From an uncultured Ignavibacteriota bacterium (GTDB taxonomy: Bacteria > Bacteroidota > Ignavibacteria > Palsa-1295), in NCBI GenBank assembly GCA_903900335.1, contig CAIUMP010000002.1, positions 1 through 43,843 on the forward strand: 43,843 nt of DNA. The letters run 5' to 3'. Shown here piece by piece: positions 37,371 to 43,046 of this stretch; position 1 is the stretch's first letter, and each line of letters begins with the position of its first letter. Under the pieces are notes generated by a model. The model did not search any database and was not told the DNA's origin. It was given only the letters and a program-made list of their open reading frames with translations. The position numbers and the translations under genes are program-made.

Positions 37371-38690
37371 CTAAACAGGTTGTAATGATCCCATCTCTTC
37401 ACGAATGGCTTGAACTTCCGAGGGGTCAAGCGTCAGATCTTCTCGCCCCTGAATGACGCGTTCCTCATAGCACAAACGCGCGCCAAAGCCCATGAACACA
37501 AAGAGGTACTGGGTAAACACATAAAAGTAGAAGAAGGTATTGTCGTTGGTACAACTGACAGCAAACATGATCGGTGTCATCACAAGGATCGCCCGGAAGG
37601 GAAAGTACGCCTTGACCCCGCGGCCCCAGAGCAATCCTCGCACGAGCATATCTGCCAGCCCGAGGTAGAACAGCATCAGTCCGATCTGCCCACCATCAAA
37701 GCGAATTCGGAGATACTCGTTATGCGGCGCACCGACGAGCGTGATGTGCTGCGTGATCCACTTGGCATATTCCTCTGTGCCACCAGCACCATAACCCCAA
37801 AGTGGTCCTTCGTTTGCCTTATCTTCGAAGTACTTCTGGAAGAAACCACGCCCGCTGTCACGCATATTTACGGATTCGTCGGCATTGAAGAATTTCGACT
37901 TTGTAGGTAACATGAGGAGTATCCCTACCAACAGCGCGAGGACTACGGTACCGATCGCCGTAAAGCGGAGATTGCGGCGATAGACCATCGCAACGATCGA
38001 GCCTGCGATAAAGACGAACGTTGGGGTTCGACTCCCAGCAATAAGCAAAAGGGAAACATTCACGATATAGAGCAACAACAGTCGAATGTCGAACTTGTCC
38101 ATCATGCGCATCATGAGGATCGTGGCCATCGTTACGTAGAAATAGGCCGTCACCGTTCGGTAGCCGATCACCCCCTCTGTCATCGAGCCTGCAACTTGAA
38201 TGGCGGACCAACCGGTCGTCGCATTGTACACGTCGAAAATTGCTACGGTGATATTGATCCACATCATCCACTTGTAGTAGCGCTCTAAATGGAAGTCATT
38301 CTGGATGGCATTGAAGGCGACCAAGTACATGAATGAAGGGAAAGCCAATTCGAGCACGGTGCGAATGCCCGTCGATACGTTATTGGACCATCCCAGCGAG
38401 ACAAAGTAGTAAATGAGGAAAATCCACCAAAGCTTCGGAGAGTATTTCCATGCACGGCTTTTTTCCGTGCTGCTAAGTTTGTTCCAGGTCATGATACAGA
38501 CGATCATGGGAAGTACGCCACTGAAGAGCTCCACTTCAGTGAATCCAAGGTTCAGGTAGATGCTCTTAAAGCCGAAGACGATGTAGAACACCGGGGTGGC
38601 GAAAGACCACAGAAGCGTATAGGGTCGCGCCGTCTTCGAAATAAGACCAATGAGCAGGAGCACCAGGACGAGTGTGATGATATCATTCAT
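37371..38690 (-). CDS. O-antigen ligase/Wzy-like polymerase
   Basis: A 439-residue polytopic membrane protein with about ten to eleven hydrophobic spans. The large external loop between later spans (NADESVNMRDSGRGFFQKYFEDKANEGPLWGYGAGGTEEYAKWITQHITLVGAPHNEYLRIRFDGG shortened here by residues 272-340) carries the typical G-x-G..H-N-x-x-L motif of the WaaL/Wzy family. It ligates or polymerises lipid-linked repeat units at the periplasmic face. Its start overlaps the previous glycosyltransferase by four bases. Ligase and polymerase cannot be separated by sequence alone; the context favours polymerase. Confidence 0.83.
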   Translation of the reverse strand: MNDIITLVLVLLLIGLISKTARPYTLLWSFATPVFYIVFGFKSIYLNLGFTEVELFSGVLPMIVCIMTWNKLSSTEKSRAWKYSPKLWWIFLIYYFVSLGWSNNVSTGIRTVLELAFPSFMYLVAFNAIQNDFHLERYYKWMMWINITVAIFDVYNATTGWSAIQVAGSMTEGVIGYRTVTAYFYVTMATILMMRMMDKFDIRLLLLYIVNVSLLLIAGSRTPTFVFIAGSIVAMVYRRNLRFTAIGTVVLALLVGILLMLPTKSKFFNADESVNMRDSGRGFFQKYFEDKANEGPLWGYGAGGTEEYAKWITQHITLVGAPHNEYLRIRFDGGQIGLMLFYLGLADMLVRGLLWGRGVKAYFPFRAILVMTPIMFAVSCTNDNTFFYFYVFTQYLFVFMGFGARLCYEERVIQGREDLTLDPSEVQAIREEMGSLQPV

Positions 38691-39979
38691 GTGCGGGCTT
38701 TCCCTCCTCCGATCGATCTACCCTCTCGTAGCATCCAATCATATATCGCCGCCTGCTTTCGGGCGATAATGTCCTGCGTGAAGTGCTCATCCACACGCCT
38801 CCTCCCGGTCTGGGCAAGCGTCTTACACGTCTGGGGTTCGCACAAAAGCTGATCCAAATGACGAGCAAGCGCGAGCGAATCGCCTTCGGTGAAAATGAGT
38901 CCCGCCTCGCCTATGACGTTAGGTATCTCTCCAGAGGAGGAGCCGATGACCGGAATGCCGTAGGCCATCGCCTCTAGCAGAATATGCCCAAATTGCTCCA
39001 CCCATTCTGGTGTGCTCAGGCTCGGTAACACCAGGACATCCATCTTGAGAAGGTGCGCTGGCAGCGCATCGTTCATCACTGGGGGCTGATGTGTAAGTGG
39101 AATGTTATTCAGTGCAGCGCGCCGCCGAACAACCTCCAGTGCATCGCCAGCGCCGACGAAATAGAGCGACACATTCGACTTTGTCTGCATTTTGCTCACC
39201 GCATCAACGAGGTCAAGCACTCCCTTTTCCTTCGTGATCCTCCCGGCGTAGCCGATGACGAAGGCATCCGTCGAGCGCAATGGGCGCTCCACCACAGTTG
39301 GAAGCTCCATCCCGAGTTGCGGCAGTACGTATATCGGTTGGTGAAATCCGTGCTGTTGAAGGATCGCTTTTGCGGCTTCATTTCCGGCGACAGCGGCTGC
39401 AGAATGCGATAAGTTGAAGCGCTCGGTCAGCTTCTTTACGCCTCGCGGAGTGTAGGGTAAATTCCACCAGGTGAAGAACGCTGCCTTCGATCGAGGAGAA
39501 AAAAGTCGAAGCAGAAACAGGATTTGCGCATACACCACTGCATACGCGCCTTGCTCTACATGGACGATGTCGGGCTTGAGACCTGCGAGGAGCGAGATGA
39601 TGGAGGGGCCGAAGAAATAGGCGCCTTCTTTGCCGATAAAGTAGGCCCTTAGAATTCTGTGATCAACAATGCCTACAGGAGAGGCAGGCTCTGCACCCTC
39701 GCGAAACGAATTGCCATTCCCGCGAGCGCGGGAATCCATAGAGTTGCTTGCCGACAAAATCGGAGTGGATTCCCACGTTCTCTGGAATGAGAACCCTGGA
39801 GGTAGAGCATCCAAGGATTGTTTCTCAAATAGGTCTGTGCGATTCTCATACAATGGCCCCTTCCAGGCGTGAGGTGTGAGCAGCGTGATCTCCGCATTGG
39901 GCATAGCTCGAGCCAGCGCTGCGATCTTCGCGTGATTCGCGCGCACGGTGTAGGTATGCCCAACGTAGAGGATCTTCAT
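38687..39979 (-). CDS. Glycosyltransferase family 4 carrying an in-frame palindromic repeat
   Basis: A 430-residue GT4-type enzyme. The N-terminal Rossmann half begins MKILYVGHTYTVRANHAKI, and the donor half shows YAGRITKEKGVLDLVDAV and EQFGHILLEAMAYGIPVIGSSSGEIPNVIGEAGLIF (E-x7-E). Residues about 63-90 are encoded by a palindromic DNA repeat (39713-39791) inserted without frameshift, which lengthens a loop between early strands. The enzyme may still work. It overlaps the polymerase gene by four bases (ATGA) and follows the CgeB-like transferase by five. Confidence 0.87.
   Translation of the reverse strand: MKILYVGHTYTVRANHAKIAALARAMPNAEITLLTPHAWKGPLYENRTDLFEKQSLDALPPGFSFQRTWESTPILSASNSMDSRARGNGNSFREGAEPASPVGIVDHRILRAYFIGKEGAYFFGPSIISLLAGLKPDIVHVEQGAYAVVYAQILFLLRLFSPRSKAAFFTWWNLPYTPRGVKKLTERFNLSHSAAAVAGNEAAKAILQQHGFHQPIYVLPQLGMELPTVVERPLRSTDAFVIGYAGRITKEKGVLDLVDAVSKMQTKSNVSLYFVGAGDALEVVRRRAALNNIPLTHQPPVMNDALPAHLLKMDVLVLPSLSTPEWVEQFGHILLEAMAYGIPVIGSSSGEIPNVIGEAGLIFTEGDSLALARHLDQLLCEPQTCKTLAQTGRRRVDEHFTQDIIARKQAAIYDWMLREGRSIGGGKART
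39713..39791. repeat. Palindromic repeat inserted in frame in a glycosyltransferase gene
   Basis: The arms CCATTCCCGCGAGCGCGG.. GAATCCA (39714-39738) and TGGATTCCCACGTTCTCT.. GGAATGA (39766-39790) pair imperfectly. Each arm is itself a short hairpin of the ATTCCC..GGGAAT type. The 79-base element with its junctions adds about 27 residues (FSFQRTWESTPILSASNS.. ) to the protein without a stop. Confidence 0.8.
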
Positions 39980-39984
39980 CGGGG

Positions 39985-40986
39985 TTACCGCGCTAATCCG
40001 AGGATTTCAAGCATTGTGCGAACACGTTTTGCATACGTCTCCTCGCGAACGCGTTCGTACCCACGAACTGCAACGGATCGGGCGTGATCGAGATCCTCCT
40101 TTAAAAATCGTATCTTCTCCAATAGCTCTTTTGAACTGGCAAAACACTCGATCTCACTTCCTTCGGCAAGCATTTGGCACTGTTCCTTCGAGCGAGTCGT
40201 GAGCATGGCCGTACGCGTGGCGGGAATTTCGAAGGTGCGCATGTTGTGGCTTCCTTCGTTTTGTGGGCGAAGAATGTTTAATGCGCACGGCGCGAGGCCG
40301 AGTACCCTTGTCGCCTGGTCGCCGTATATCGCTTTCGACTGAATCCACTCCCGAGGCACCCTGCTCGATCTCGTCCAGCCATTTCCCCAAATGCCGATCG
40401 TACAACCGCGGAGTGAAGCCAACAGTTTGTCACGCTCCGGAGAGTAGGTGCCAACAAAGACCGCATCGAATTGACTTTCGGTGGCTATTCCTTCGACGGG
40501 GAAATGAAGCGATGGGTCGTGGGCAAATGGAAGGAAGTGTACAGCTTTGGCACCAGCAGATCGAAATTGATCCACGAGGTGACTGTTCCACGTGAAGTGA
40601 ACATCATACTCCGGGATGCTTTGCTTCAATCGTATTGAAGAGTTTTGCTTCTCCCAAGGGCTATCGGGATTAAGATTGATTAGCGGCCTTCCGGAGAGTA
40701 GTTTGTGAATTTGCAGCAGATCCTCCGGGTTGATCGTGCGGCCCTTGACAACGAATACGAAGTCAGGACGTGACTCCTCTACTGCATTCACAAGCCACTT
40801 CCCTACTCTGTCTGCAATTTTTGAGCGAAGCAGTTTATCGATGAACGCAACGGAAGCAAGCGGATGCGCGCGAGCGATCTGCTCCCAGTCAAACCGGACA
40901 ACGCTCCAACCGACACTCTCGAACGCCCTCGCGTAACTCTCTTCGAGAGAGCCATGCCAAAACGCGCCGGAGATGAGTACCTTCAT
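39985..40986 (-). CDS. CgeB-like glycosyltransferase
   Basis: A 333-residue GT-B type enzyme of the spore-maturation CgeB / Glyco_trans_1_2 kind. The N-terminal part has MKVLISGAFWHGSLEESYARAF and DFVFVVKGRTINPEDL; the middle reads LINLNPDSPW and FLPFAHDPSLHF; the donor half has FDAVFVGTYSPERDKLLASL and ALNILRPQNEGSHNMRTFEIPATRTAML, the GSHNMRTFE block being typical of the group. The sugar and acceptor are not known. It overlaps the fused GT-methyltransferase gene by four bases. Confidence 0.85.
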   Translation of the reverse strand: MKVLISGAFWHGSLEESYARAFESVGWSVVRFDWEQIARAHPLASVAFIDKLLRSKIADRVGKWLVNAVEESRPDFVFVVKGRTINPEDLLQIHKLLSGRPLINLNPDSPWEKQNSSIRLKQSIPEYDVHFTWNSHLVDQFRSAGAKAVHFLPFAHDPSLHFPVEGIATESQFDAVFVGTYSPERDKLLASLRGCTIGIWGNGWTRSSRVPREWIQSKAIYGDQATRVLGLAPCALNILRPQNEGSHNMRTFEIPATRTAMLTTRSKEQCQMLAEGSEIECFASSKELLEKIRFLKEDLDHARSVAVRGYERVREETYAKRVRTMLEILGLAR

Positions 40987-43046
40987 TGAATCGGCTTCCG
41001 AGCGCGGATGATGATGTGCGGTGCAAATGCAGAGGGCCAGAGCTCTTCGAGAAACGCCAATCGTGCCACGCGCGGCAGCTTTCGACGAAGCAAGGAGGTT
41101 ACGTGCTGCGTACCGTAGCCTCCAAAGGCATCAAGGCCATCAAAGATGGAAGCATCACCGTTGGAGCGAATGGACTCAACGACGAATCCGGAGACCTCAA
41201 ACATTCGTGTAAATGATTTCAGGCTGTAAAACCGGATGTGTGCACCCTTCCATTCATTCGAGAAATCGGTGATGGAGGTGGACATCTCGGCGCGCGTAAT
41301 AGCTTTCAAGCGTTCTCGGAAATAGCCGTTGTTTGGGACGCTACCGACAAAGAGTCCACCGGGCTTGAGTACACGGAAGATCTCCTGCACGGTGAACTTT
41401 GGGTCGTAGAGATGTTCCAGCACCTCGATCGAGATCGCACCATCAAAGGAGTTGCCTTCGTATGGGAATCGCTGTGAGAGATCGTGAACCTGGGCGTCGA
41501 TCCCCATTCGGCGCGCCACAGCGATACCGGTTTCGCTGATGTCTATTGCCTTCAGGTGAGCGACCTGACCGACCAGCCAGGATTGATAGTTAGACGCATC
41601 ACCGCAACCAACATCGAGCACCGTGTCGGATGGCTTGAATGCACCCTTGAAGTGAGTCGAAAGCTGCTCGTCGGTGAAGCTGTGGATAGGCGTCCAGCCG
41701 GCGGAGCGATTCCAGTAGGAATCGTAAAAGCTGGCGATCTCGCTGCTCGATTGTGATGCTCCTTCTGAGGGGTGTGCGGACGAGGACGTCTGCACTACAG
41801 CAGGCGAGGACGCGTGCTCCACGTTGCTAATGATTTGAGTTGGCCCGAGAATCCGGTTGTAGGATTCCAGTATCGCATCACCATAGGAATCCCAACCGAA
41901 AAACTTGGATGCTTCGGCGGCGCTGGCTCCAAGCTGAAGTGCAGCGATAGGGTTAGCGATCAGTTCGGTCAGTGCTACGGCGAGCGCGGCGGCATTCCCT
42001 GCTTCGACGATGCGGCCATTGACGCCATCTTCGATGAACTCCCTCCCGCCGGTATTCTCTGTCGCCACAACCGGCAAGCCACTCGCCATTGCTTCTGCAA
42101 TGACGAGAGCAAGGCCTTCCTGGATAGATGGAAGACAAAAGATCTGTGCGTCATGGAAGTGCTTCGGCAATTCGTGATTGGCAACGAAGGGAATGTGTTG
42201 GTCTATCTCCGAACGGAGCGGGCTCGATTTCAGCCAGGCTTCAAAATCGCTTTCGAAGCGCCCAATAAGTTTTAAGCGGAGCTTATTACCGCTGGCTCGA
42301 AGTGCTCTCACTGCTTCGAGCAAGTGCGGCACACCCTTCTGAAATCCGATAGCGCCGACGAAGAGAATGGTTGGAATATCTTGCCACGCATTCCGTTCGA
42401 TCGCAGTGAACCTGCTTAGGTCAACGCCATAGCGAACCTTCAACAGCTTTGCACTGCTCAATCCGCGAGTGAGAAAGCTTTGCCGAACGAACTCGCTGGG
42501 GACCATGAGATAATCTGCCTCATGGTACTCCTTTAGCTGCTTCTCTTCGAGCATCCTATCCCATTGGGATGCCCTCTGCTCAAGGCCTGACCCGAATCCA
42601 AAACGCCTTCGCTCTTCGTCAAGAAGGCGGTACTGCTCGGAAATATGCGTCGAGCCGCGCTCGATGATCGTCTTCGCGCCACGCGCTTTGGCCTCGCGAA
42701 GTTGGAAGAGCGATTGGCTAGCCCAGCCAACGAAAAGGTCGGAGTTCGGGATGTGCTTGACCGCGGCGCGATCATAGCTGTTATCCTTGACGAAATAGGC
42801 AAGCGACTGAGCCTCGGCGGTCGGCAACTTGCGGAGAGCGTAACAGAGATATTCCGGGAGCGGGATCTGGTGCACCCGCTTTCGGAACTCAGCCTTGCCG
42901 CGAAGCCCATCGGGCAAGCGGCGGTTCGGGAGCAGTTTGTCGTTGAGGGTCGTGGTGATAAAGCGGTCTAAGTGACCGCGACGGTAGAGCTCATCAACAA
43001 GATTGAACGCATGGAAGCGTCCGGCAGCGCTGACAGTGACGCGCAT
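40983..43046 (-). CDS. Fusion of a GT4 glycosyltransferase and a SAM methyltransferase
   Basis: A 687-residue protein in two modules. Residues about 1-405 are a GT4-type glycosyltransferase (LFVGAIGFQKGVPHLLEAVRAL; PSIQEGLALVIAEAMASGLPVVATENTGG with E-x7-E). A linker rich in Ser/Ala follows (about 405-440). Residues about 440-687 are a class I methyltransferase with motif I VLDVGCGDAS near 474-483, then AIDISETGI, and the FDGAISIEVLEHLYDP block. It should add a sugar and then methylate that sugar or another, perhaps as chain cap. It is the most upstream gene of the polysaccharide cluster in the window. Confidence 0.87.
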   Translation of the reverse strand: MRVTVSAAGRFHAFNLVDELYRRGHLDRFITTTLNDKLLPNRRLPDGLRGKAEFRKRVHQIPLPEYLCYALRKLPTAEAQSLAYFVKDNSYDRAAVKHIPNSDLFVGWASQSLFQLREAKARGAKTIIERGSTHISEQYRLLDEERRRFGFGSGLEQRASQWDRMLEEKQLKEYHEADYLMVPSEFVRQSFLTRGLSSAKLLKVRYGVDLSRFTAIERNAWQDIPTILFVGAIGFQKGVPHLLEAVRALRASGNKLRLKLIGRFESDFEAWLKSSPLRSEIDQHIPFVANHELPKHFHDAQIFCLPSIQEGLALVIAEAMASGLPVVATENTGGREFIEDGVNGRIVEAGNAAALAVALTELIANPIAALQLGASAAEASKFFGWDSYGDAILESYNRILGPTQIISNVEHASSPAVVQTSSSAHPSEGASQSSSEIASFYDSYWNRSAGWTPIHSFTDEQLSTHFKGAFKPSDTVLDVGCGDASNYQSWLVGQVAHLKAIDISETGIAVARRMGIDAQVHDLSQRFPYEGNSFDGAISIEVLEHLYDPKFTVQEIFRVLKPGGLFVGSVPNNGYFRERLKAITRAEMSTSITDFSNEWKGAHIRFYSLKSFTRMFEVSGFVVESIRSNGDASIFDGLDAFGGYGTQHVTSLLRRKLPRVARLAFLEELWPSAFAPHIIIRARKPIQ

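Follow-up and report, generated by a model that had tools for sequence, protein, structure and literature searches.

An in-frame palindromic dimer, probably an old CGTC-1-type REP insertion, in a glycosyltransferase gene of an uncultured Ignavibacteriota bacterium

Introduction

In the sections of the survey by Di Nocera, De Gregorio and Rocco (2013, PMC3733652) on which we draw, CGTC REPs are defined by a stem, a loop, a tail and a tag; the accepted tags are CGTC, or TGTC, CCTC, with TGTC a common variant. These repeats form head-to-head dimers, and their intragenic copies, when dimeric or grouped, mostly encode 20 to 30 residues. The CGTC-1 family is stated there to include dRS3 of Neisseria and RPE-6 of R. 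conorii, the phyla listed for it include Chlorobi and Bacteroidetes, and in 2013 it had yet to be established how CGTC REPs move (PMC3733652). The Rickettsia palindromic elements (RPEs), as first reported, measure about 150 bp, carry a conserved peptide and lie in genes in nearly half of cases, and in-frame RPE fusions are described in the parts of the 2024 review used here (PMC10969869).

A palindromic dimer lies in frame within the glycosyltransferase gene described below. We consider it an old, tolerated in-frame insertion of a CGTC-1-type REP head-to-head dimer, with a probability of roughly 0.88. What is new is a further member of a described REP family; intragenic copies of such repeats were already known. 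A literature search by sequence words returned no relevant repeat paper among the matches listed.

Results

The window, by which we mean the whole stretch of 43,843 nucleotides that was analysed, is contig C2 of a 4.0-Mb genome in 62 contigs. The host gene is part of a polysaccharide cluster that also contains genes for a Wzy_C protein, a DegT aminotransferase, a bacterial sugar transferase and further glycosyltransferases. The features discussed are as follows.

38687..39979, minus strand: host gene for a 430-aa GT4-type glycosyltransferase (Pfam Glycos_transf_1, E 4.3e-25, residues 235-394; ATG start; open frame)
39676..39814, minus strand: approximate full segment absent from homologues (46-48 residues), about 57-63 nt of it outside the REP dimer; from the homologue alignment, the non-REP part being single-copy where tested
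39712..39792, no strand assigned: head-to-head REP dimer including the tag positions, 81 bp, delimited by sequence; read in frame on the minus strand it gives about 27 residues, SFQRTWESTPILSASNSMDSRARGNG
39712..39738, plus strand: intact REP unit, TGCC (a probably decayed tag) + ATTCCCGC-GAGC-GCGGGAAT + CCA; 1 of 23 fixed positions off the family core
39739..39765, no strand assigned: unique 27-nt spacer between the units (spacers vary among dimers)
39766..39792, minus strand: second REP unit, inverted and decayed, TCTC + ATTCCAGAGAACGTGGGAAT + CCA; 4 of 23 fixed positions off the family core

Also on the minus strand, 40983-43046 encodes a 687-aa protein in which a group 1 glycosyltransferase is fused to a C-terminal methyltransferase domain. 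The stretch EQFGHILLE, which we take to be an E-x7-E-like motif, is intact in the GT4 protein.

The stem, loop and tail of the intact unit occupy 39716-39738 on the plus strand, with TGCC ahead of them where the TGTC tag would stand. Folded as single-stranded DNA, the element strand is more stable than any of 200 shuffles (z = -4.30), and the GT4 reading frame stays open throughout. Searched at gathering scores, Rfam gave no match in the window. The exact inner-pair pattern retrieved 10 elements from the genome and the exact single-unit pattern 35 matches, against 0 for the reversed-pattern control in both cases. The fold and these controls confirm the two inverted hairpins that a first-pass annotation had reported within the GT4 gene; its palindrome of about 79 bp is indeed there and measures 81 bp once the tag positions are included. 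A chance palindrome in a fast-evolving loop, outside any repeat family, might be suggested by the loss of both tags and the decay of one unit. However, the other unit is exact over 23 pattern positions, the inner pair is exact, and copy number together with the zero matches in the reversed controls rules out chance, whose probability we place close to nil.

By structure and copy number, the element belongs to a family that occupies at least 25 distinct places in the genome, so the further copies that the first-pass annotation had proposed to look for do exist. This count is a lower bound, since the search admitted exact or near-exact matches only. The DNA read held 26 places, or 25 when the one shared by the contig ends of C38 and C54 is counted once; 20 places are dimers, 65-86 bp long, in a set that leaves out C54. 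Both contigs end in the same 141 bp, element included, which indicates that the assembly breaks at this repeat.

The family consensus reads TGTC-ATTCCCGC-GAAn-GCGGGAAT-CCAG, a spacer, and then the inverse. Its 8-bp stem (ATTCCCGC/GCGGGAAT) starts with AT and is imperfect in the second window unit. All 35 exact matches fit this stem with a 4-nt loop, though 4-10 nt were permitted between shorter arms, and the CCA tail of the family is kept in both window units. Head-to-head dimers predominate (20 of the 25 distinct places), and the TGTC tag is well preserved: 8 of the 20 dimers agree with the tagged core throughout its 46 fixed positions, and 19 depart from it at two or fewer. The window copy itself has TGCC and TCTC at these positions, so its own sequence alone would not qualify by tag; compared with the other copies, the missing tags are read as decay.

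On these grounds the family fits a CGTC-1 REP. As far as the consulted sections of the survey describe that family (PMC3733652), the two share the 8-bp AT-starting stem, the 4-nt loop, the CCA tail, the TGTC tag, a predominance of dimers with rare singles, and intragenic copies, whereas the window copy differs in being without both tags.

Homologues of the GT4 protein in six genus mates and one family mate align over nearly full length with 48-58% identity by blastp (52-58% overall for the genus mates), and both sides of the insert are conserved. Between the motifs TD.F and HRIL the window protein has 58 residues; the seven mates from the genus and family have 10-12, and six more remote relatives have 9. 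The segment is absent from all 14 aligned rows besides the window protein, two of which (L025 and L042) are one sequence, and none of the aligned relatives carries the same peptide without the repeat, in agreement with the insertion claimed by the first-pass annotation. The alignment suggests that the element was inserted into the GT4 gene, and both the event and its approximate borders are drawn from this comparison. With conserved N- and C-terminal parts in a single frame, translation through the element would be the simple reading. The first-pass annotation had put the addition at about 27 residues without a stop or frameshift; the element does encode about 27 and the frame is open, but the net excess over homologues comes to 46-48 residues (138-144 nt), and the element and its tags account for 81 nt of it. 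A plain insertion therefore leaves about 57-63 nt unexplained here, and about 58 nt at the second genic copy.

This second copy lies at C36:1711-1775 (L088), where a REP dimer is in frame within a 977-aa protein with FG-GAP repeats. Homologues occur in five of the six genus mates; their match stops at residues 529/530 and restarts at 573-576, and alignment of the five gives a net insert of 41 residues around the 65-bp element, a segment that the homologues lack. With 0 differences from the tagged core at 46 positions, the C36 dimer is a perfect and apparently recent copy. Its 65 bp are not a multiple of three, so extra DNA is needed there to hold the frame. A larger mobile unit was considered and rejected: the flank 39640-39712 has no second copy in its own genome, and in 163 kb of own DNA the flanks of the two genic copies, which are unlike each other, match nowhere else. 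The two copies are also read in different frames. An inverted 8-mer beside the C36 copy (CGGTCTTC/GAAGACCG) was judged a likely coincidence.

We counted how many copies lie in genes, as the first-pass annotation had proposed. Nine of the 26 places are outside any stop-free frame of at least 100 aa and 17 are inside one. Homology extends to both flanks at two of these 17 (the GT and FG-GAP copies). At four others Pfam recognises a domain only in the part downstream of the element (VWA, Ppx-GppA, enoyl-CoA hydratase and CrcB), and 11 are without a Pfam match, which does not by itself prove a frame non-coding; one of the 11 looks by eye like a gene beginning after the element. Apart from the GT and FG-GAP copies, those examined lie between genes, upstream of a recognisable gene, or in a frame that Pfam does not support. 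Of 28 places in the genus mate G003, taken from a longer list for that genome, 5 fall in a frame of at least 120 aa that extends 30 aa to either side of the element. Four of these frames match nothing in Pfam; in the fifth, read by eye, the domain lies downstream of the element. With homology-supported coding on both sides at 2 of 25 places in the window's genome, the REP family here would appear to lie mainly outside genes.

The window dimer is the most diverged of the 20, differing from the TGTC-tagged core at 5 of 46 fixed positions compared with 0-2 in the other 19, and its RNA hairpin is the weakest (-35 versus -44 to -66 kcal/mol). Judged by this decay, the window copy is probably old. 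Across the 20 dimers, 62 of 120 dimer-by-frame combinations are open, and 27 of 120 are both open and a multiple of three in length, so surviving in-frame insertions are to be expected and a special mechanism is unnecessary.

The combination of age and an open frame could also mean that the enzyme has come to use the inserted peptide, for instance in acceptor binding or in contact with a membrane or partner, and that selection keeps it; the weakened hairpin would likewise fit selection against strong mRNA hairpins within genes. Yet four of the five fixed-position changes alter a residue, which leaves no visible constraint on the peptide, although this is a very small number read by eye against the family core. 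As far as sequence tells, homologues manage with 10-12 residues at this site, the GC3 of the extra segment is lower than that of the rest of the gene (0.52 versus 0.62-0.67), and the insert is modelled at very low confidence. We therefore regard selection for the peptide as improbable. The model in question, an AlphaFold prediction from two sequences, has a mean pLDDT of 54.6, with 23-38 in the insert blocks. It places strands 30-37 and 104-111 on either side of the insert. The first-pass annotation had assigned the insert to a loop between early strands, which on this low-confidence model is a tentative placement. Matches in a PDB sequence search were limited to about the C-terminal half (earliest query residue 167), without the insert region.

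Still less probable, in our view, is that the GT4 gene is a decaying pseudogene that has yet to gain a stop. The fivefold decay of its element relative to other copies and its oversized loop are what such a gene might display, but the 430-aa frame is open over its full length, both conserved halves are intact after an apparently long time, and the neighbours in the polysaccharide gene cluster are intact as well.

Of 61 genomes, 17 contain the exact unit pattern, among them all seven genomes of the genus, with 1 to 91 matches each and 112 in one distant relative. Y1_Tnp (PF01797), in turn, was found in 49 of the 61, with six matches in the window's own genome. No unit directly flanks a transposase gene in the 30 loci scanned or in stretches of own C24, C26 and C54, of G003 C30 and C43 and of G043 C137, which cover four of the six own matches, and next to the elements inspected we saw no dedicated transposase. 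Within this scope the result would agree with the statement, in the sections of the survey consulted, that CGTC REPs are without a dedicated transposase (PMC3733652). Loose unit matches lie about 1.1-1.4 kb from the transposase loci in L109, L114 and L128. Three relatives have units but no Y1_Tnp match, G012 and G025 at more than 90% completeness and G009 at 67%. On C54, a Y1_Tnp match with one stop (2175-2501, within L094 at C54:2175-3013) lies 429 bp from a REP dimer. The distant relative G043, whose 112 exact units are the top count among the 61 genomes, has a single Y1_Tnp gene with no unit in the surrounding 11.5 kb.

Discussion

The first-pass annotation had likened the element to RPEs. 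The comparison is apt in that RPE-6 is placed in the same CGTC-1 family in the sections consulted (PMC3733652), and the element resembles RPEs as a palindromic repeat in frame within a gene of unrelated function whose peptide is absent from homologues. In-frame insertion into a gene is seen in both the GT and the FG-GAP gene. However, the dimers here measure 65-86 bp (81 bp in the window) and their genic copies are read in different frames, whereas RPEs, as described in the parts of the review used (PMC10969869), measure about 150 bp with a conserved peptide. The share of places in supported genes (2 of 25) is likewise unlike the nearly half of RPEs, and the family here is mainly outside genes. 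Neisseria dRS3 is also assigned to CGTC-1; as far as the survey sections go (PMC3733652), it occurs mostly in large clusters, in contrast to the dispersed dimers here. With the GTAG REPs and their RAYT transposases the family shares short tagged palindromes in head-to-head pairs, and Y1_Tnp genes are present in the genome, but the tag is not GTAG, the stem is another one, and no tyrosine transposase gene flanked by the repeat was found among those examined.

We propose that a CGTC-1-type REP dimer entered the GT4 gene at what may be a surface-loop position, driven by some mobilising activity that would have acted in trans. A net length that is a multiple of three and a frame free of stops kept the N- and C-terminal parts of the enzyme in one frame. 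The inserted peptide would most likely be a tolerated, presumably neutral passenger, and point mutations have meanwhile degraded the REP copy. The case does not solve how CGTC REPs move. It does document REPs inserted in frame into conserved genes, in a genus that has a Bacteroidota-labelled member; the homologue L042 comes from a metagenome-assembled genome deposited as Bacteroidetes bacterium. An old genic copy and an apparently fresh one, both in a single genome, form a pair suited to testing toleration of the peptide against selection, and to asking what else an insertion carries with it.

In G002, the orthologue L023 contains an unrelated dispersed palindrome in frame (C65:7102-7154), in another loop that is about 20 residues longer than in the window protein. 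Taking the CGTC REP of the window together with this GCAGGCTGGAAGCC-type repeat, one enzyme family has been struck by two unrelated palindromic repeats. A wider reading, which we hold to be unlikely, is that new protein loops in the genus arise repeatedly from palindromic repeats (two unrelated repeats, two loops, two species) and that about 60 nt of additional DNA came with, or was drawn in by, each genic CGTC insertion. If true, insertion would deliver more than a REP dimer, and old copies may by now serve the enzyme as functional parts. The unit GCAGGCTGGAAGCC occurs in five copies in G002, in one in G003 and in none in the other five genomes of the genus, and TGCGCCAC follows it at each of the four other places in G002.
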